The notes under the pieces are model-generated. The model saw only the letters and a list, made by a program, of their open reading frames with translations. It was not told the origin of the DNA and made no database searches. Made by a program: the position numbers and the translations under genes. A DNA stretch of 35,194 nucleotides from Flavobacteriales bacterium (lineage in GTDB: Bacteria > Bacteroidota > Bacteroidia > Flavobacteriales > Flavobacteriaceae): NCBI GenBank assembly GCA_027065715.1, contig JAMONO010000084.1:1-35194 (forward strand), in the 5' to 3' direction. Below are positions 6,561 through 35,045 of the stretch, in pieces; position 1 is the stretch's first letter, and the number at the start of each line of letters is the position of its first letter.

Positions 6561-9077
6561 ATGAAAATACTTCAAAAATATCTTTCTTTTTTGGTTTTTC
6601 TCATCGGAATATTGTTTTTTATTCAATGTTCAACACAGCGTAACAATTTGGTAAACAGAAACTTACATCAACTTTCAACCAAATATAACGTTTTGTTTAA
6701 CGGCGAAGAAGCCCTCAACAAAGAACTGCAACAAATACACGAAAATTTTCATGACAATTTTTTTGAAATTCTTCCCGTTGAACAATTCAACGCCAAATAT
6801 GAAATATTGATGCCCGGACAGCGCAGCACAACCGCCAATTTGGAACGTGCCGAAGAAAAAGCCGTAAAAGCCATTCAAAAACATTCGATGGAAATACGCG
6901 GTGTACAAGAAAACAATCAAATAGACAATGCTTATTTGCTCTTGGGCAAAAGCCGTTACTATCAAAAAAGATTTTTGGCGGCACTGGATGCTTTTAATTA
7001 CGAATTAGACAACGATTTTAAGTCTAATTTGCGTCCTTTATTCAAATTTTGGCGCGAAAAAACCAATATTCGAATGGACAACAACGAACAAGCCATTCGC
7101 AACTTGCAATTTCTTGCCCGTCAAGACGATACTCCGCAGAACATCAAATCCGAAGCTTATGCTTATGCCGGTCAGGCACTTATCAAAATAGACAGTTTAT
7201 CCAAAGCCGCTCTTAGTTTGCAACAAGCTGCCCGTTTGGCAAAAGACAGAGAAAAAAAAGCGCGTTATTTGTTCATAACCGCACAACTGCTTGACCACTT
7301 AAACCTCAACGATTCGGCAGTCTCGTTTCTGCAACAAATCGAAGCTATGAAACGCCCCCGCAAATACAGTTTGCAAGCAGAGTTATACAGATACCACCTT
7401 TCATTAAACAATACCGAACAACATCCCGAGATGCTCGAAGCTTTATATACCAAACTCAAACGATACGAATATCATAAATTTTATCCGTATATCAATTACC
7501 AAATAGGCGAAATATTTCACAGTGAAGACAGTTTAAATACAGCCGTCAATTATTATACCTCGGCTGCTCGTTCGCAAGACAAACAACTCAAAGAAAAAGC
7601 TTACGAACAAATGAGTAAAATCGGATTTCAAAAAAAAGATTACCTCATGGCAGGTGCTTACCTCGACAGCTTGTTGCAAGTAATGCCTCAAGAAACACTT
7701 AAATACCTAAAAACCAAACACAAAAGACAAAATATAGACGACATTATCGTGCTCGAAAAGAAAATAAAACGCAATGACAGTATCATGAAACTTGTCAATG
7801 CCGATAGCTTACAAAGGGTCAAAATGATACAAGATTACATAAATCGTCTTCGCGAAAATGAAGCGGCTCAAATGAACAAATCAGAAGAAAATTTTATGGA
7901 AGTTAAACCCAAATATGCCACTTTTTATTTTTATAACCAAGATTTGGTAAACAACGGAAAAAAATATTTTAAAGATACTTGGGGTACTTTTTCGCTGGCA
8001 GATATGTGGCGTCTCAAAAACAAAATGAGCATGGAAGACCTGCCCGACGAAGAAGAAACAACCGACGAAGAACAAACAAACGAAACAGATACAAACAATG
8101 AAAAAAACCTGCCCGACAAATACAAAGTAAGTTACTATTACCAACAAATACCGGTTGAACCTCAAAAAATAGACAGTATTGCAGGCGACCTAAATTATGC
8201 ACACTATCAAGTGGGAATGATTTACTACGAAAAATTTAAAGAATTGGAAAAAGCTCGTCAACATTTGGAAACCATGTTGCAATCCAATCCGAAAACCGAA
8301 CTTATTCCTCCGGCAAAATACAATTTATACAAAGTTTATAAAGACTTGGGCAACAATTTAATGGCAGAACATTTGGCTGCCGAAATCGTTCAAAAATACC
8401 CCGAAAGCATCTATGCCGATTTGATAAAAAATCCCGACAAAATTTCGGAGCGTTCCAATAAAGAATTTCAAGCGGCTTATCATAAACTCTATCGTTTATA
8501 TCAACAGCAAAAATACGATTCGTTGCTGCAAATGTCCGATCCCTTGTTAATCAAATTTGGATTTCACCCCGAACTGGGCAAAGTCGAATTGCTTAGAGCC
8601 ACCGCAATAGCCCGTGCCGAAGGCTTAGATGCCTACGAAAAAGCCTTGAAAAATATCATGCTCAAATACCCCAAAAGCCCGTATGAAACAGAAGCCGAAA
8701 AACGCATGAAATTGGTCGAAAAATATAAAAAAGCCACCTATACAACCGCCAAAACCGATTCATACAAATTGGTAATCCCCTACAATATTTTCGATACTTC
8801 GGTCGATAATTTCGTGGCATGTATAAACAAAGTTTTGGAAGAAAACAAAAGCACCCATTTGCATATCTCAAAAGACCCGTTTACACGCCATCAATCTTTT
8901 GTGGTCATACACAATTTTTTGAGTAACCAATCTGCCGAATATTTAGCCGATTTGTTGCAAAAAACCGCTTGTGCACCCAAAAATTATTTTGTAATTTCGT
9001 CGGACAATTACAAAACACTTCAATTGACCAAACGGTTGAAGCAGTATTTGACATTTATTCACAAACAAACAAAATAA
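6561..9077 (+). CDS. sprE: PorW/SprE-type gliding and type IX secretion lipoprotein (TPR)
   Basis: An 838-residue lipoprotein. The signal peptide ends in GILFFIQC with the acylated Cys at residue 23. Immediately after comes the family signature: NRNLHQLSTKYNVLFNGEEA and then DNFFEILPVEQF, as in SprE of Flavobacterium and PorW of Porphyromonas. The remainder is a long array of degenerate TPR helices (for example YLLLGKSRYYQKRFLAALDA), an acidic Glu/Asp/Thr-rich linker at about 495-520, more TPRs, and a small C-terminal domain. The family is needed for type IX protein secretion and gliding and links outer-membrane translocon parts to the ring complex. Bactofilin starts 6 bases after its stop, so they are one operon. 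Confidence 0.9.
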   Translation: MKILQKYLSFLVFLIGILFFIQCSTQRNNLVNRNLHQLSTKYNVLFNGEEALNKELQQIHENFHDNFFEILPVEQFNAKYEILMPGQRSTTANLERAEEKAVKAIQKHSMEIRGVQENNQIDNAYLLLGKSRYYQKRFLAALDAFNYELDNDFKSNLRPLFKFWREKTNIRMDNNEQAIRNLQFLARQDDTPQNIKSEAYAYAGQALIKIDSLSKAALSLQQAARLAKDREKKARYLFITAQLLDHLNLNDSAVSFLQQIEAMKRPRKYSLQAELYRYHLSLNNTEQHPEMLEALYTKLKRYEYHKFYPYINYQIGEIFHSEDSLNTAVNYYTSAARSQDKQLKEKAYEQMSKIGFQKKDYLMAGAYLDSLLQVMPQETLKYLKTKHKRQNIDDIIVLEKKIKRNDSIMKLVNADSLQRVKMIQDYINRLRENEAAQMNKSEENFMEVKPKYATFYFYNQDLVNNGKKYFKDTWGTFSLADMWRLKNKMSMEDLPDEEETTDEEQTNETDTNNEKNLPDKYKVSYYYQQIPVEPQKIDSIAGDLNYAHYQVGMIYYEKFKELEKARQHLETMLQSNPKTELIPPAKYNLYKVYKDLGNNLMAEHLAAEIVQKYPESIYADLIKNPDKISERSNKEFQAAYHKLYRLYQQQKYDSLLQMSDPLLIKFGFHPELGKVELLRATAIARAEGLDAYEKALKNIMLKYPKSPYETEAEKRMKLVEKYKKATYTTAKTDSYKLVIPYNIFDTSVDNFVACINKVLEENKSTHLHISKDPFTRHQSFVVIHNFLSNQSAEYLADLLQKTACAPKNYFVISSDNYKTLQLTKRLKQYLTFIHKQTK

Positions 9078-10457: not shown

Positions 10458-10817
10458 ATGAAACAATTAACCAAAGCCGAAGAACAAATTATTCAAATAA
10501 TGTGGCAGCTTGGCAAAACAACCGTCAAAGAAATAAGAGCCCAAATGTCCGACCCCAAACCGGCTGTCAATACCGTATCCACCATTGTTAGAATTTTGGA
10601 AAGCAAAGGCTTTGTCGCTCATGAAAAAAAAGGACGCGGTTATTTGTATTATCCGGTGGTTCAAAAAGAAGACTATACCCGACATAGTTTACGTCAAATA
10701 ATCAACAACTATTTTGACGGTTCATTTAAAAATTTGGTTTCTTTTTTTGCCAAAAAAGAATCCGTTGATGTGCGAGAATTAGAAGATATTTTAAAAGAAT
10801 TAAATAAAAACAAATAA
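10458..10817 (+). CDS. blaI: BlaI/MecI/CopY family repressor
   Basis: A 119-residue winged-helix repressor. The N-terminal DNA-binding domain shows LTKAEEQIIQIMWQLGKTTV, the recognition-helix region PAVNTVSTIVRILESKGFV and the wing HEKKGRGYLYYPVV. A C-terminal helical dimerisation part follows. In the model systems BlaI or MecI represses its operon until cleaved by, or because of, the BlaR1/MecR1 metalloprotease. That partner is encoded 3 bases downstream. The tandem palindromes upstream are the likely binding sites, so autoregulation is expected. In Bacteroidota such pairs often control functions other than beta-lactam resistance; no beta-lactamase gene is present here. Confidence 0.92.
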   Translation: MKQLTKAEEQIIQIMWQLGKTTVKEIRAQMSDPKPAVNTVSTIVRILESKGFVAHEKKGRGYLYYPVVQKEDYTRHSLRQIINNYFDGSFKNLVSFFAKKESVDVRELEDILKELNKNK

Positions 10818-10820
10818 GTC

Positions 10821-12248
10821 ATGTTGTTTTATTTTTTACAAGTATTTCTTTTGCAATTTGTTTTTTTGCTGTTTTATTATTGGTTTTTACGCAAAGAAAC
10901 TTTTTTTCAGTGGAACAGAATTTATTTGCTTGTTACCGGCATATTGTCTTTTGTCATTCCGTTGTTTCGTTTGAGATGGCTGACTCACAATCAAGCATTA
11001 ACGCAACACTTGGAACCGGTTATTATCGGCAGCAATAATTTGAAAACAAACCTGTATCAACAAGTGGAAATGAACTACAATCAGCCGCTTTTATGGTTTT
11101 ATTTTGTCGGATTGGTATCTTTTGCGATGCTGTTTTTTATCAAATTATACAAAATATTTTTATTGATACAAAAACACAAAATCATTAAAAAATCCGGATA
11201 TACAATAATTTTATTAACCGAAAAACACGAAGTGTTTTCTTTTTTAAACTATATTTTTATCGACGAACATTTGTTGCAAAACAATAACCTGCCTGTTATC
11301 ACACATGAGTTGGTGCACTTAAAAGAAAAACATTGGTTGGATTTGTTGATTTTCGAATTGCTTAAAATCTTTTATTGGTTCAATCCGTTTTTGTGGTTAT
11401 ATCAAAAAGAATTGGAACTGGTGCACGAATTTATTGCCGATAAAACCGTATTGCAAAATCATCCTTTGACCAATTATTTCAATCAAATTTTGCAAGAAAC
11501 TTTTCATGTGCGAAAAATTTCTTTTGTCAATCAATTTTATCAACCCAAATTATTAAAAAAACGTATTATGATGCAAAAAAGACCTCCCTCAAAACATTGG
11601 ACAAAAATAAAATATGCAGCTTTCGTTTTTGTCTTGTTAGCTCTGATAAGCATAGTAGATGCTTGTAAAAACGAGACTTTGTCCGAGAATGAAAATATCA
11701 TTACAGCCGAAGCCTTGAAAAAAATAGACGCTAATGATGTTGCTTCCATCAAAGTAACCAAAAATCCGGATAAGATCACCATAAAGACTAACAACGGTGA
11801 AGAAAAAGTGTACTATCCTGCCGAAAATGATCCGTTTATTCTCCAATTGAATAATAACAAAAATATTGATAATGACGACGACGACATCGAAAAATCTTTT
11901 CTCTTTGTTGAGGTACCTCCGGTATATAAAGGTTGTGAAGGTTTAATTGGACAGGAAGCCAAAGATTGCTTTTCTGAAAAAATACGTGAATTTGTCGCCA
12001 AAAATTTTCGAACCGATTTGGCTGACAGTTTAAACCTAAAAGGGCAAAGGATAAAAATACTTACCATGTTTACCTTTGATACAAAAGGAAAAGTAACACG
12101 TATCAAAGCTCGTTCCAAATACAAAATTTTTGAAAAAGAAGCCAAACGTGTGATTGCTCTATTGCCAAAAGTAACTCCCGGTAAACAAAACGGCAAACCT
12201 ATAAAAGTTACTTACACTTTACCGATTATTTTTAAAATTGATAAATAG
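10821..12248 (+). CDS. blaR1: BlaR1-like M56 membrane metalloprotease with TonB C-terminal domain
   Basis: A 475-residue membrane protein. Three or four helices in the first 260 residues surround an M56 zinc site: H162-E-L-V-H166, with the downstream LVHEFIADK segment (His202/Glu203) supplying the third ligand. A further helix lies at about 263-282. The outside part is not a penicillin-binding sensor. It has an acidic linker and, at about 385-475, a TonB-C-like domain (VPPVYKGCEG..., MFTFDTKGKVTRIKARSK, YTLPIIFKID). Proteases of this type sense an envelope signal and inactivate the BlaI repressor. The TonB-C module suggests the signal may be a periplasmic protein contact, which is inference. 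It sits 3 bases after blaI. Confidence 0.88.
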   Translation: MLFYFLQVFLLQFVFLLFYYWFLRKETFFQWNRIYLLVTGILSFVIPLFRLRWLTHNQALTQHLEPVIIGSNNLKTNLYQQVEMNYNQPLLWFYFVGLVSFAMLFFIKLYKIFLLIQKHKIIKKSGYTIILLTEKHEVFSFLNYIFIDEHLLQNNNLPVITHELVHLKEKHWLDLLIFELLKIFYWFNPFLWLYQKELELVHEFIADKTVLQNHPLTNYFNQILQETFHVRKISFVNQFYQPKLLKKRIMMQKRPPSKHWTKIKYAAFVFVLLALISIVDACKNETLSENENIITAEALKKIDANDVASIKVTKNPDKITIKTNNGEEKVYYPAENDPFILQLNNNKNIDNDDDDIEKSFLFVEVPPVYKGCEGLIGQEAKDCFSEKIREFVAKNFRTDLADSLNLKGQRIKILTMFTFDTKGKVTRIKARSKYKIFEKEAKRVIALLPKVTPGKQNGKPIKVTYTLPIIFKIDK

Positions 12249-28669: not shown

Positions 28670-31600
28670 TTATTCGATATTTACATGAGTTCCTTTGCTG
28701 TGACTGCTAAATTCGGGTGCATACATACATTGTAATGTCGTAATACCGTTTGAAAAGCTTCCGGCGTTGTTGGCGCGTAAATCATATTCAAATACATAAA
28801 CACCTTTGTGCAAACGGCTGATAAAAAAATTGGTTGAAGCATCACGAGTGCTTTCATAGTAGCCCAAACCGTCTTGCCAACGATAACCTGACAATACGTT
28901 TACAGGTTCAAATCCGGCGGCACGCATATCTTTCAGATGAACATATTCCATATCTCTGTCTACTTTTATAGTTATGCGTACCCGAATCAGATCGCCTTTT
29001 TTGATAATGGTGCCGGGGATAATTTCATTCATTTTTTCGCCGGTATCGGTAAATTGTCTTATAAATAAATTTTTGGTAATGGCAACCGGAGTTTGTGCAC
29101 GAGATATTTTATCCAAGTCTTCAAAATATTGCCAATACAATCCGCCCCAAGCAATACCTTTGTCTTTTTTGGTGATGGTAACTTTTGCCATTTCGGATTT
29201 TATTTCATTTGCCGTCCACGATTTTTTAAAATACCCTGTTCCGGCTTCGGTTTTAATTTCGGGTATTTGATCAGGCTCTATTTTTATGTTTCCTATTTGA
29301 ACCGAAAGACTGTTGTCGATAGACAGCCAATCGGTTCCACGAAGCAGCAAGGCATATATGGCTTCGGTGGTTTGTTTGGTGGTTTTCCATGCATTGGTTT
29401 GTTTGTTTTTGAGCAACCAAATACGCATTTCATCTGTCTTTTTCGGGTCTTTTTCTATTTCATCAAAAGCTTCAATCAACAAAGCTTGGGTTTCGATGGG
29501 TGCTTCATACCAATACAAACCCGGAGTATTGTTTTTCCAATACATACCGAGTTCGTCGTTTTTAATACTGTTTTCGTCTAACGAGCGAATGATGTCATTT
29601 GCAATTTGTTTGTTGCCGTTGCGATACGAAACCAGTGCCAATAATCCTTTGGTATATAAACGATAGTTTAACCAATATTTTTGAGCTTGTTTTAAATAAT
29701 AATCAGCTGCTTCGCGAGTTTGTGGGGTCATTTTTTCCGAAAAGAAGCTACGGGCATATAAATAATGAATTTGAAATTCGCCGGTGTGGTATGAATTCAA
29801 ATATTGCTTCGGGTCTTTGTGATGTTTGGCATATTTTTGAAGTTTTTGATAGTCTTCTACAATTTTTTGGTCAATATATCGAATGGCTTTTCTCAACATT
29901 GAAGCGCTTTGTTGTTGATTTACAGACACTTGCAAGTGTTTGAGATGTCCCATTCCGGCAACGATGTGTTGGGTAATATACCGACTGCTGTAATGTCCTC
30001 CTTTAAACCACGTAAAACCGCCGTCGGACAGTTGCATTTGTTTGAGTTTTTGCAAAGCAAGATTTTGTTCGTACGACATTTTGTTGAGGTCAAATAGCAG
30101 GGCAATTCGTTTTTTTTGTTCACTTTCGTTTTGAGCATCGCGCAACCAAGGGGTTTCTTCAATTATCAAAGATTTAAGTTCTTGATTTTTTTGCAAAGCC
30201 GACAACAATTCATTGCTGTCAAGCTTTTTCCAAGTATCGAATACTCTTTTTATTTTCGGATTTTGATTGGCAATATGCGAAGCCAGACTATTGGCATAAA
30301 AACGCGCAAAGGTTTGTTCGCTACATTCATAAGGATATTCCATCAAGTAAGGTAAAGCTTGTACTGCATACCAAGCCGGATTGCTTGTTATTTCCAAGGT
30401 TAAACGGTGATTTTTGAGTGTTTGGCTTTTATTGTGTAACAGTTTATCCAACACAAAGGTTTTGCTTTGGTTACCGCGCACCCACATGGGTAAGGTTTCG
30501 GTTACCAACATGCGATTGGACAATACGGGCATAAGGTTTTGTTCGGCATCGGTTTGATTGCCTGCTTTTGCCATTACTTTATATTGCAAAGCTTCGATAT
30601 TTTCGGGTATATTGATAGTCCAGCCAACTTGGGTATTTCCGTTGGCATCGATATTAAAGCTTTGTTGTAGTTTGTTTGGTATCAATTGACGGCTGATGTC
30701 TTTTTGAGATACGGCATCGACCAGTTCCAACCGGACTGTTCCATGTAGGTTTTTGTCGGTTAAATTGGTTATTTTGGTGCTCAATATCAGTTTATCGCCT
30801 TCGCGAACAAAACGGGGCGCATTGGGAAACAGCATAAGGTCTTTTTGCGTTACGGCGAAAAGTTCGCGGTAAGCATAATCCAAATTTCGGGTATGAGCAA
30901 GCAATTGCAGTTTCCAACGGGTTAAAGTTTCGGGTATGGTAAAACCAAAAGTGATGTTTCCGTTTTTGTCCGTATAAAGTTTGGGAAAGAAAAAGGCGGT
31001 TTCTTGCAGGTTTTTGCGGGCATTGATTTGAAGTTTTTCGGTGGTTTGCAATCCTGCCAAACCTTTTCCTTCGGGTGTAGTGATAATGATAACCCCGTTG
31101 CGGGCTTTGGCACCGTACAAAGCGGTTGCCTGTGCACCGGTTAATACTTTTATTTTTAAATTCTTGGTGTTCAACTTGTCAATATCTATTGAACCGTCTT
31201 CAATAAGCACTCCATCTACTACATATAAGGCTTTGTCGGAGGAAGCCGATTGAGCTCCTCTTATAACAATTCCTCCGTTTTCAACTTCGTCGGCAGCCAT
31301 TTGCACACCGACAACTTTTCCGTGTAGCGCTTCTTCACTAACTTTTTTGACTTCCAACCCCATGCTATATAAAATATGCTCTCTCATATCCAAATCGAAC
31401 CATTTTAAATGTTCAAATGATAGCGTAACGGGATAATAGGCATGCGGTTTAATATTTTGGACGGCAAATGATTTATTGCCATAACTGTTTACGGTTTTTA
31501 TTACTGTGTTGGAGCGGTAATACAGGTATCGAACGGGATTAAAGTGCCAGGTATTGGTTACAAATTCATCTAACGAGGCATCATACATTGAAGCCAAAAC

Positions 31601-34600
31601 TTCGGCGGCTATTTTTTGGCCTTGTTGACCTTTTATTTTAAATTGCCATTCTTCCTTTTGTCCGGGGTGTAATTTGTCTCTAAAAGTCAAGGTTTCAATT
31701 TGAAGTTCTTTGGAAGGATACGGGACTTGCACGGTTTTTTGACCGACAACATAATCGTTATAAGCTTCATATAGGTAATGAATAATGAATCCGCCGCGAT
31801 CTTTTTCGGTTACGGGGACATGAATTTGATGGTATTTTCCATTGGTTTTGATAAGTCGTTGTGATACAATACGATGATTTTTTTCTATCCACAGTCTAAT
31901 GTAGGTATTTTGTGCAGCCGAACCGATGTAAATCAGTACGTTTTCGCCCGGTTGATAAGAATCTTTATCGGTAAAAATATCGAAATATTTTTGGTCGGGT
32001 ACTTGTTTGGGTTGGGATTTTTTGACGTCAAAATAAGTTTTGTCGGTAACGGGTTTTCCGTCTTTGTCGTGTGTGGTCAATTCGGCTACATATTTTCCTT
32101 CTTGCCAATTATTGTCGGGGTTAAATTCCAAACGGGTTTGTTTTGAGGTGTCAAAATCAATGTGTAATATTTCATTGCCTTTTTTCCAAAACCGATAATC
32201 ATTTTCGGTTTGGTCGTATGGCAGATGGGGAAAAAGGCGAATGAACTCCGATTTGGGTATATTTTGTATTTCGGGCGATTTCCAAGGTCGTTGGCGTAAC
32301 ACTCTGTCGGGAGCTTGCAATTTGTATATTTTGATTTGTCCTTGTGCGGGTATATCCACACCGTTGAGGTTGGTGGTTTGCACTTGTATCGATTCTTTTT
32401 TTCCTTTAATAACAATTTCGGGTATATCGATACGAGCCAACATAGCGTGATAAGCTACATTGACTGTTGTGGTAGCCGTGTGTGTTTCGCCGTTTAAGTC
32501 GGTAACTTCGGCAAAAATTTCGTAATGAAATACGGGACGTTGTTCGGGACTGACCGACAAATCGGGTAAGGCTTTAAATTTGATGATAAATTCGCCTTTT
32601 TTATCGGAGGTTAATTGTCCATGTGCTATTTCTTGGGCTTCACTGCTAATAGAAGGGCGAGACCAATACCACCAACGGGGCGTTTGCACTTTGCGTTTTA
32701 CCCGATAACTAACCTTGGCACCGGTTATCAGCGAACCGGCAAAACTTTTGGCAAAACCGGTTACGGCTACCGTATCATTTATTTTATAGGTTTGGTCGGT
32801 CTTTTTAAAATCCACCGCAAATTTGGGACGTTTATATGCTTCGACTTTGATGTTTTTATTTGCATATATATTTTTGGTTTTATTAACGACCGACAAGCTA
32901 AAGTTTCCGGTTAGGGTTTGGGCGGGAAGTTCAAACTCACCGCTTACCGAACCATAGTGATTGGTAACTAAGTCCAATTCTTTGATTTTTTGTCGGTTGG
33001 TATCATACAAAGTAATTTGAAGGTATGTGTCAGCCAAAACTTCCGAACGATTGTTGTGTTTGGTAAGAGCAATGGCTTTGAAATAAACCGTTTGCCCGGG
33101 TCGATAGATGCTTCGGTCGGTAAAAACAAAGACCGTTTGATATGATTTGGGGTTTTTATACGGGTGTATATTGAGCACATAATCACTAAAATATGCTTTT
33201 TTGTTTTGGTCATAAGTAATTTCAAACAAATACGAATTGTAATTTTTATGGGGTATCGACAGATTAAAGTCGCCGTTTTTGTCGGTTATTTTTTTGGTTT
33301 TTAGTGCCCAATCTTCATTTATGTTATTCTTATAAATTTTGATTTGTGCACCGGCTATGGATTTGCCGTTGTTCCGATTGGTTACACGATATATATTTTG
33401 GTTGTCGGCTTGACTTACCGCTTGCAAAGACACATCGGTTACTTGCCAAAAGGTATAGCCCCATTGGTCGTCGTTCAGGCTTTTGACCAGCACTACATAA
33501 TAACCGTTGGGTAGGGCTTCTACAATTTTTTCGGTGCTGTGCGGTTGGTAATCGTTGGGGTTGGTCAGTTCAAAAGTGTATTTTTTGACCAGGTCTTGTT
33601 GTTCTATTAAGTAACGTTTAGATAAACGGTCGTATGTATTTTGAATTTTTTCTTTTTGTTTCCAATCAATCCGGTAAACAAACATTCTTATCTTGTTGAG
33701 GTTTTTGTAAGAAACATATAACGGAACAGGCTGGTTTTCGGGAGTATGTTCTTCCATTTTCAAAGATAAACTGTTTGATTTTATTTGCTCGATTAAATTT
33801 TTGCATTTTAAAGCGCCCGGCGTATCAGGATATTTTTTAACGGCAAGTTGAGCTGTTTGTAGCGCTTCTTTCTTTTTCCAACGCACATTTTCATTGTGGT
33901 TTTCGGGGTATTGGTCTCCTTGTTTTGTCAAATATTTTGCCAAGTGGTAATAAGCCAGTGCCGCAACATCCGATTCTTCGTAATCATGAATAAAACGCGA
34001 TAAAGTTTGGATATATGCTTTGTCTTTGTCGGCAAATACAGCATGTCGATAAACAAAAGAGAGGCGTTCCAAATCAACCATAGCCAAAGCATCAAGTTGT
34101 TTGTATTGTAATCTGAATTGTAATAAATCTTGATACAATTGAATCGCTTTGACCTGCGGTGAAAGACTGTCTTGCGGGTGAATATTGATTGTTATAAATT
34201 TTCGGGCATCGGAAAGAAAAGCCGGATTATCGATTTCAAACTTATATGCCGGTGCCGGCAAACCGTTTTCGTCAGATTGATAAAATCGCAGGGCTTCGTG
34301 TGCCAGTAAATCATACAAGGTAGGTCGGTATTTTCGGGTTTCTTTGTGTATTTGTAAGATAGGTTCCCATTTATCGACCGAAAGTTTTTGCAACAGGGTT
34401 TTGTTTTGTAAAGAACGGTCAAAATGTCGATTTATTTCTTTAAAAATTGTCTTTAAATCCCAAGTTCTGAAATCGGTTGTGTCAATTTGAACGCCGGTTT
34501 CGGTGCGACGGGCAAATCGCCAACGGTTGTTTTGATAGTATTGCCAATAGAGTTGTGCCAGATAATTTTCCAAAATATTGGAAGTAGGCGGAGTGCTTTC

Positions 34601-34939
34601 ATTAATTTCTTTTTTAAAATTTCGAACAATTTTTAAACGACTATTTTCTTCCAACACCATCATATATCGGGATTGATACAACAAACTTTTGATGATTTGC
34701 GGGCTGTTATTTTCTTTTTTGGCTTTTTGATAAATTTTTTGTGTTAGTTCGTAAGCGGATCGGGTCATACCTTTTTTGTCAAGTTTATCGACCTGTTGCC
34801 ACATTTCGGTATAAGTATCGAATTTCATATTTTGTAAACGTTGTATGTTTTTTTCTTGTTGAACGGGTAAAGAATTGTTGGTTTTGCTGCTCGAACAAGA
34901 CAATAATATTATAAAAGGAAGCAGAAAAATTTTATACAT
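28670..34939 (-). CDS. Giant alpha-2-macroglobulin-like lipoprotein with embedded SusC-type plug
   Basis: A 2,089-residue lipoprotein; the start is the ATG at 34939 (a TTG lies 2 codons earlier). The signal peptide FLLPFIILLSC puts the acylated Cys at residue 15. The first ~400 residues are helical. Macroglobulin domains follow, with the MG2 mark DRSIYRPGQTVYFKAIAL at about 605. At about 1197-1290 is a TonB-receptor plug-like segment: LHGKVVGVQ, IRGAQSASS, LYVVDGV (D1242) and YGAKARNGVIIITTPEG (G1282). The thioester motif is C1539-S-E-Q1542 in PYECSEQTF, followed by the helical thioester domain (GGFTWFKGGHYSSRYITQHI). It ends with the MG10 domain (MYAPEFSSHSKGTHVNIE). Such proteins trap proteases in the envelope. 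No pbpC is beside it. Confidence 0.9.
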   Translation of the reverse strand: MYKIFLLPFIILLSCSSSKTNNSLPVQQEKNIQRLQNMKFDTYTEMWQQVDKLDKKGMTRSAYELTQKIYQKAKKENNSPQIIKSLLYQSRYMMVLEENSRLKIVRNFKKEINESTPPTSNILENYLAQLYWQYYQNNRWRFARRTETGVQIDTTDFRTWDLKTIFKEINRHFDRSLQNKTLLQKLSVDKWEPILQIHKETRKYRPTLYDLLAHEALRFYQSDENGLPAPAYKFEIDNPAFLSDARKFITINIHPQDSLSPQVKAIQLYQDLLQFRLQYKQLDALAMVDLERLSFVYRHAVFADKDKAYIQTLSRFIHDYEESDVAALAYYHLAKYLTKQGDQYPENHNENVRWKKKEALQTAQLAVKKYPDTPGALKCKNLIEQIKSNSLSLKMEEHTPENQPVPLYVSYKNLNKIRMFVYRIDWKQKEKIQNTYDRLSKRYLIEQQDLVKKYTFELTNPNDYQPHSTEKIVEALPNGYYVVLVKSLNDDQWGYTFWQVTDVSLQAVSQADNQNIYRVTNRNNGKSIAGAQIKIYKNNINEDWALKTKKITDKNGDFNLSIPHKNYNSYLFEITYDQNKKAYFSDYVLNIHPYKNPKSYQTVFVFTDRSIYRPGQTVYFKAIALTKHNNRSEVLADTYLQITLYDTNRQKIKELDLVTNHYGSVSGEFELPAQTLTGNFSLSVVNKTKNIYANKNIKVEAYKRPKFAVDFKKTDQTYKINDTVAVTGFAKSFAGSLITGAKVSYRVKRKVQTPRWWYWSRPSISSEAQEIAHGQLTSDKKGEFIIKFKALPDLSVSPEQRPVFHYEIFAEVTDLNGETHTATTTVNVAYHAMLARIDIPEIVIKGKKESIQVQTTNLNGVDIPAQGQIKIYKLQAPDRVLRQRPWKSPEIQNIPKSEFIRLFPHLPYDQTENDYRFWKKGNEILHIDFDTSKQTRLEFNPDNNWQEGKYVAELTTHDKDGKPVTDKTYFDVKKSQPKQVPDQKYFDIFTDKDSYQPGENVLIYIGSAAQNTYIRLWIEKNHRIVSQRLIKTNGKYHQIHVPVTEKDRGGFIIHYLYEAYNDYVVGQKTVQVPYPSKELQIETLTFRDKLHPGQKEEWQFKIKGQQGQKIAAEVLASMYDASLDEFVTNTWHFNPVRYLYYRSNTVIKTVNSYGNKSFAVQNIKPHAYYPVTLSFEHLKWFDLDMREHILYSMGLEVKKVSEEALHGKVVGVQMAADEVENGGIVIRGAQSASSDKALYVVDGVLIEDGSIDIDKLNTKNLKIKVLTGAQATALYGAKARNGVIIITTPEGKGLAGLQTTEKLQINARKNLQETAFFFPKLYTDKNGNITFGFTIPETLTRWKLQLLAHTRNLDYAYRELFAVTQKDLMLFPNAPRFVREGDKLILSTKITNLTDKNLHGTVRLELVDAVSQKDISRQLIPNKLQQSFNIDANGNTQVGWTINIPENIEALQYKVMAKAGNQTDAEQNLMPVLSNRMLVTETLPMWVRGNQSKTFVLDKLLHNKSQTLKNHRLTLEITSNPAWYAVQALPYLMEYPYECSEQTFARFYANSLASHIANQNPKIKRVFDTWKKLDSNELLSALQKNQELKSLIIEETPWLRDAQNESEQKKRIALLFDLNKMSYEQNLALQKLKQMQLSDGGFTWFKGGHYSSRYITQHIVAGMGHLKHLQVSVNQQQSASMLRKAIRYIDQKIVEDYQKLQKYAKHHKDPKQYLNSYHTGEFQIHYLYARSFFSEKMTPQTREAADYYLKQAQKYWLNYRLYTKGLLALVSYRNGNKQIANDIIRSLDENSIKNDELGMYWKNNTPGLYWYEAPIETQALLIEAFDEIEKDPKKTDEMRIWLLKNKQTNAWKTTKQTTEAIYALLLRGTDWLSIDNSLSVQIGNIKIEPDQIPEIKTEAGTGYFKKSWTANEIKSEMAKVTITKKDKGIAWGGLYWQYFEDLDKISRAQTPVAITKNLFIRQFTDTGEKMNEIIPGTIIKKGDLIRVRITIKVDRDMEYVHLKDMRAAGFEPVNVLSGYRWQDGLGYYESTRDASTNFFISRLHKGVYVFEYDLRANNAGSFSNGITTLQCMYAPEFSSHSKGTHVNIE

Positions 34940-35045
34940 ACTCAAAGTTTTATATTTTACGGGACAATTTACTAAAAAATACGGTAATTTTTTCGTGATA
35001 TTTTATCAACTTACAAAAACTTTGCCGAAATTTTTATAAATATAA

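Follow-up and report, generated by a model that had tools for sequence, protein, structure and literature searches.

We find that the alpha-2-macroglobulin (A2M) encoded in the window, by which we mean the whole stretch of 35,194 nucleotides of Flavobacteriales DNA analysed here, carries a SusC/RagA-type TonB plug in what, by alignment of the flanks and by predicted structure, is its bait position. The feature is real, and the protein belongs to a known family with an unusual bait. We hypothesize that it is a periplasmic protease trap whose bait mimics SusC, that is, a putative integrated decoy that copies a receptor of the cell itself, and we give this reading a probability of roughly 45%.

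By its domain profiles, CxEQ motif and bait position, the protein classifies as a bacterial A2M, with protease trapping as the predicted activity (Table 1). All of its Pfam matches (MG2, A2M_BRD, Plug, A2M, bMG10) exceed the curated cut-offs. The start as listed is a TTG, with the first in-frame ATG two codons downstream. Because the lipobox comes without an acidic surface-export signal, the product is a predicted lipoprotein of probably periplasmic location. Most Flavobacteriaceae A2Ms seem to have an ordinary signal peptide that ends in A-Q, and a lipobox cysteine was seen in the window protein and in L032; judging from these leader sequences, anchoring seems to have changed in the window's genus. 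The profile of the C-terminal half of the protein matched no solved structure. The arrangement of MG domains, bait, thioester and bMG10, as well as the CxEQ motif, is common to E. coli ECAM/YfhM and Salmonella SaA2M, and the bait-bearing MG domain superposes on that of ECAM. There are two differences. Firstly, the ECAM bait is short and disordered (residues 923-942; PMC4498604), whereas the slot in the window protein measures about 175 amino acids and holds the plug. Secondly, the E. coli gene adjoins pbpC and the window gene does not.

Table 1. Features of the A2M gene of the window and the evidence for each.
Feature	Position	Strand	Evidence
Alpha-2-macroglobulin (A2M) gene	28670..34945	-	2091 aa, single open frame; Pfam MG2, A2M_BRD, A2M, bMG10
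Lipobox LLSC/SSSK	34883..34906	-	LLSC at residues 14-17; sequence
MG2 domain	32843..33133	-	Residues 605-701; PF01835, E 2.4e-21
A2M_BRD domain	31574..31978	-	Residues 990-1124; PF07703, 39.5 bits; VIA-align counterpart in ECAM, Z 11.9; its end is the N-terminal side of the bait
Bait-region position	31001..31531	-	About residues 1139-1315; flank alignment to human A2M and ECAM; hypervariable among relatives
SusC/RagA-type TonB plug in bait position	31091..31336	-	Residues 1204-1285; PF07715, TIGR04056, PDB SusC matches, AlphaFold core
A2M domain	30728..31000	-	Residues 1316-1406; PF00207, 61.8 bits; RKNLQETAFFFP onward, C-terminal side of the bait
Thioester motif CSEQ (CxEQ)	30314..30325	-	Residues 1541-1544; sequence; intact
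bMG10 C-terminal domain	28712..29080	-	Residues 1956-2078; PF17973, 118 bits

Elsewhere in the window, on the plus strand, positions 6561-9077 encode the T9SS periplasmic lipoprotein PorW/SprE (NF052312, 593 bits; no Pfam match at default threshold), and positions 10458-12248 a BlaI-type repressor and, downstream of it, an M56 (BlaR1-like) peptidase whose C-terminal domain is TonB_C. The same-genus genomes G060, G065, G069 and G071 also encode a second A2M, distantly related (22-30% identity) and about 1850-1880 amino acids long, and one Flavobacteriaceae genome contains three consecutive A2M genes (G033:C1:488223-508409).

The original prediction had recognized a SusC-like plug from four strings, and these are present in the order given: LHGKVVGVQ at residues 1207-1215, IRGAQSASS at 1228-1236, LYVVDGV at 1240-1246 and LYGAKARNGVIIITT at 1276-1290, together window positions 31076-31327 on the minus strand. 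Profile searches bear the identification out. PF07715 matches significantly (28.9 bits, cut-off 23.9; E 1.7e-6), and so does the NCBIfam SusC/RagA model TIGR04056 over residues 1204-1313 (72.1 bits, E 3.3e-20); the latter score and that of the SusC signature TIGR04057 (38 bits) lie under the curated cut-offs, which suit whole receptors or the full signature. In phmmer searches, PDB chains of SusC and RagA match the same stretch (E 2e-8 to 1e-5). Near-invariant plug columns were defined as those with one residue in at least 90% of SusC plugs; 13 of these 15 residues are present in the window plug. In the AlphaFold model the segment does not take the form of an ordinary MG domain: a beta-alpha-beta plug core is predicted, with moderate confidence, at residues 1232-1291 (pLDDT 61-85), the N-terminal half of the plug has pLDDT below 50, and the low-confidence stretches 1158-1235 and 1298-1316, probably disordered linkers, flank the core, with MG strands on either side.

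The absence of a receptor barrel was likewise rightly anticipated. A2M domains follow the plug, TIGR04056 reaches 72 bits against a cut-off of 368, and the 22-stranded barrel of a SusC/RagA transporter is not found in the window protein. Neither sequence inspection nor profiles reveal in the bait of the window protein the SusC NTE domain (PF13715) and TonB box that would precede the plug. The window A2M thus shares the plug with transporters such as Bt1763 and RagA, and A2Ms of relatives also share NTE and TonB box in SusC order; without a barrel and with its plug inside a protease trap, the window protein could not perform transport alone.

We place the plug at the bait because its flanks align to both sides of the baits of human A2M and ECAM. 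The stretch of human A2M directly after its bait, RKYFPETWIWDL...VTVPDTITEWK, aligns in phmmer to RKNLQETAFFFPKL...FTIPETLTRWK of the window protein, with RKYFPETWIWDL opposite RKNLQETAFFFP. In Foldseek, ECAM and Salmonella A2M are among the highest-ranked matches for the window model, and VIA-align superposes model residues 125-509 (protein residues 986-1370) on ECAM 756-1021 (Z 11.9, rmsd 4.3 over 224 residues), a range within which the ECAM bait falls. Before the bait, ECAM VLVSAVDSGVLNI...PDPWQAFF resembles window VLASMYDASLDEF...HFNPVRYLYY, and after it ECAM LNEQGEGSVTLPIGDFNGELRVMA resembles window TDKNGNITFGFTIPETLTRWKLQLLA, both read by eye. Since hhalign to ECAM aligned only a short NAPRF stretch downstream of the bait, the correspondence to the ECAM bait rests on structure and these flank motifs. 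The earlier placement of the segment, after the macroglobulin domains and ahead of the thioester domain, needs refinement: it lies at the bait region, within an MG domain flanked by PF07703 and PF00207. The suggestion of a bait-like segment gains from the same alignments. In complement C3 and C5, the corresponding site of the MG6 domain houses a folded domain, the anaphylatoxin, which is released on cleavage. The plug is similarly lodged, but its fold and origin are unrelated and no release is known in the window A2M.

Relatives were collected by a search of 60 same-family genomes and a scan of genome contigs, which yielded about 100 Flavobacteriaceae A2Ms with a readable bait. Their bait slot is hypervariable in sequence, 114-310 amino acids long, and contains varying mixtures of NTE, plug and TonB box (LDEVVVxGYG); a barrel never occurs there. 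By simple patterns, in a set of 102 baits that has at least one organism twice (L006, L062), a plug is recognised in 15, an NTE in 23 and a TonB-box motif in 45; 50 show none of these. The motif is expected 0.07 times in shuffled baits, and 25 of the 45 baits that bear it have neither plug nor NTE. A profile search of a slightly different bait set gave 17 distinct plugs, and TIGR04056 matched 21 of 38 sequences in an alignment assembled so as to contain the plug bearers (E down to 6.5e-73). NTE and TonB box stand ahead of the plug in relatives such as L100 and L051. In the AlphaFold model of Polaribacter glomeratus A2M, NTE and plug are folded and the TonB box between them is disordered. The architecture of the window A2M is found in isolate genomes, among them those of P. 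glomeratus, Lutibacter citreus and Wocania arenilitoris. Within the window's genus, none of the other readable A2M baits has a plug, and the contig of the nearest relative (G071) ends inside the bait. In other families of the class the motif occurs in 3 of 38 baits. One of these families supplies a bait with NTE and TonB box, LNEVVVVGYGTQAKKEVTGAV (L251, genome G151), from its sequence possibly a further capture. A literature search on A2Ms with plug or TonB returned nothing relevant.

Some baits hold eroded SusC scraps. In nine (L004, L012, L021, L039, L069, L070, L084, L097, L109) the SusC order is reversed, with ALSGRVAGVQ (the ALxGRVAGV piece) before LDEVVVxGYG, which we read from the sequences as a sign of rearrangement inside the bait.

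How did the pieces get there? A plug-only tree (97 columns) scatters A2M plugs among SusC plugs with low resolution and long branches, and a single A2M clade narrowly escapes rejection (AU p 0.057). The longer alignment of NTE, TonB box and plug (220 columns) yields three sets of A2M modules: one is L030 by itself, next to a SusC from its own genome (support 100/100); one has four modules (100/96); and one unites seven NTE-plug modules from different genera in one A2M clade (96/96). This alignment rejects a single origin (AU p 0.032); the well-supported branches force two changes and the best fit is three. The L030 module is 57% identical to its own-genome SusC over 201 gap-free residues from NTE to plug end. 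On these trees, the periplasmic SusC unit of NTE, TonB box and plug appears to have been captured at least twice, probably three times. Four or more captures, hinted at by the plug-only tree, are not upheld by the longer one. A recent copy from an own-genome SusC is supported for G010; for the window plug the idea was discarded, as its best own-genome match scores 33 bits against 57 bits for a SusC of another genus. The A2M tree requires at least 12 changes for the plug, 17 for the NTE and 23 for the TonB box. Phylogeny thus indicates that captures were succeeded by long descent and many losses, long persistence following from the single clade that unites seven modules of different genera.

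Several measures bear on constraint. The 17 A2M plugs retain on average 91% of the near-invariant residues, versus 23% matches in variable columns. In L050/L052, the sole unsaturated usable pair, dN/dS is about 0.22-0.27 in the plug and about 0.07 downstream, mild support for constraint on the plug. Among 21 A2Ms that lack both plug and NTE, a clade picked by tree and not by motif, two islands of the bait are conserved, ALSGRVAGVQ and LDEVVVVGYG, and the bait around the TonB box is otherwise randomised. Across 12 motif-bearing pairs, pN/pS is 0.23 in the box, 0.81-0.94 in adjoining codons and 0.13-0.20 in MG domains, a contrast inflated by selecting pairs on the motif itself. Comparative evidence of this kind suggests that the captured SusC pieces are partly kept by selection.

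In our model, the N-terminal, periplasm-facing portion of a SusC/RagA receptor would have invaded the bait or taken its place, and the plug alone would remain of it in the window genome. Any protease that enters the periplasm and attacks the N-termini of SusC would also cut this mimic or the disordered linkers around it, whereupon the trap would close and the thioester bind the protease. The module would be useful as a likeness of that part of SusC which a periplasmic protease meets. In A2Ms, bait cleavage triggers a conformational change that exposes the thioester (PMC4498604). Protease traffic near TonB-dependent receptors is plausible because flavobacteria export proteases (note PorW/SprE in the window) and because in Myxococcus, according to PMC6434023, export of the protease PopC needs a TonB-dependent transporter. 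Several facts weigh against a decoy. A folded plug is odd as bait, and cuts would have to fall in linkers; half of the A2Ms in Flavobacteriaceae and almost all of those in other families lack the module; same-genus relatives with readable bait do without it; and the window copy lacks NTE and TonB box. The broader proposition, that captured SusC N-termini form a functional self-mimicking bait for proteases that attack or cross via TonB-dependent receptors, with the TonB box as selected core, is one we put forward with more hesitation. Plant NLRs offer an analogy: in their integrated decoys, a copy of the attacked host protein is built into the sensor, as a copy of the own receptor may be built into the A2M bait.

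Alternatively, the segment might recruit TonB or a SusC barrel and keep the A2M at receptors that are energised and might admit proteases, or the pull of TonB might alter bait exposure. We regard such coupling as unlikely. It accounts better for the conserved TonB box, which is frequent also in baits without plug and NTE, forms an island in a clade chosen irrespective of motif, and has a low pN/pS relative to its neighbours, a figure biased by the choice of pairs. The same motif is required by SusC Bt1763 for growth on levan, its TonB box being 82-DEVVVTG-88, downstream of the NTE (PMC7782687), and the signal peptides of the A2Ms point to the periplasm. It does not account for the window copy, which has no box, and in rearranged forms the box is not adjacent to the plug. 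The original prediction had offered docking onto a partner receptor or TonB-linked complex; we judge this less likely for the window protein itself, which has no TonB-box motif, than for the many relatives that keep LDEVVVxGYG in the bait, and in general a TonB docking site is less likely than a SusC-mimicking decoy bait.

It is similarly improbable, in our opinion, that the pieces are neutral filler, supplied to an insertion-tolerant bait by the common, repeated SusC genes through illegitimate recombination and then eroded. Such a process accounts for the turnover, to which the frequent gains and losses on the A2M tree, reversed piece order, eroded scraps and variable bait lengths testify, but not for the retained core plug residues, the long-lived clade of seven modules or the TonB box that stands out from randomised neighbours; moreover, the captured piece is always the periplasmic part. 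An assembly or gene-fusion artefact, to which the 175 contigs of the window genome and the lack of a plug in same-genus A2Ms with readable bait might point, is very hard to believe given a frame open throughout all 2091 amino acids, the recurrence of the architecture in many independent genomes, isolates among them, and a plug that was not copied from an own-genome SusC.

Taken together, a decoy bait derived from SusC would touch on two poorly known matters, namely how bait regions gain new protease specificity and what bacterial A2Ms protect against. A bait borrowed from a nutrient receptor of the same cell, more than once and partly kept by selection, gives a testable answer: such a trap may be directed at proteases that attack TonB-dependent receptors or make use of them. 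A receptor N-terminus kept without its barrel may also give a way into the still unexplained NTE domain of SusC.
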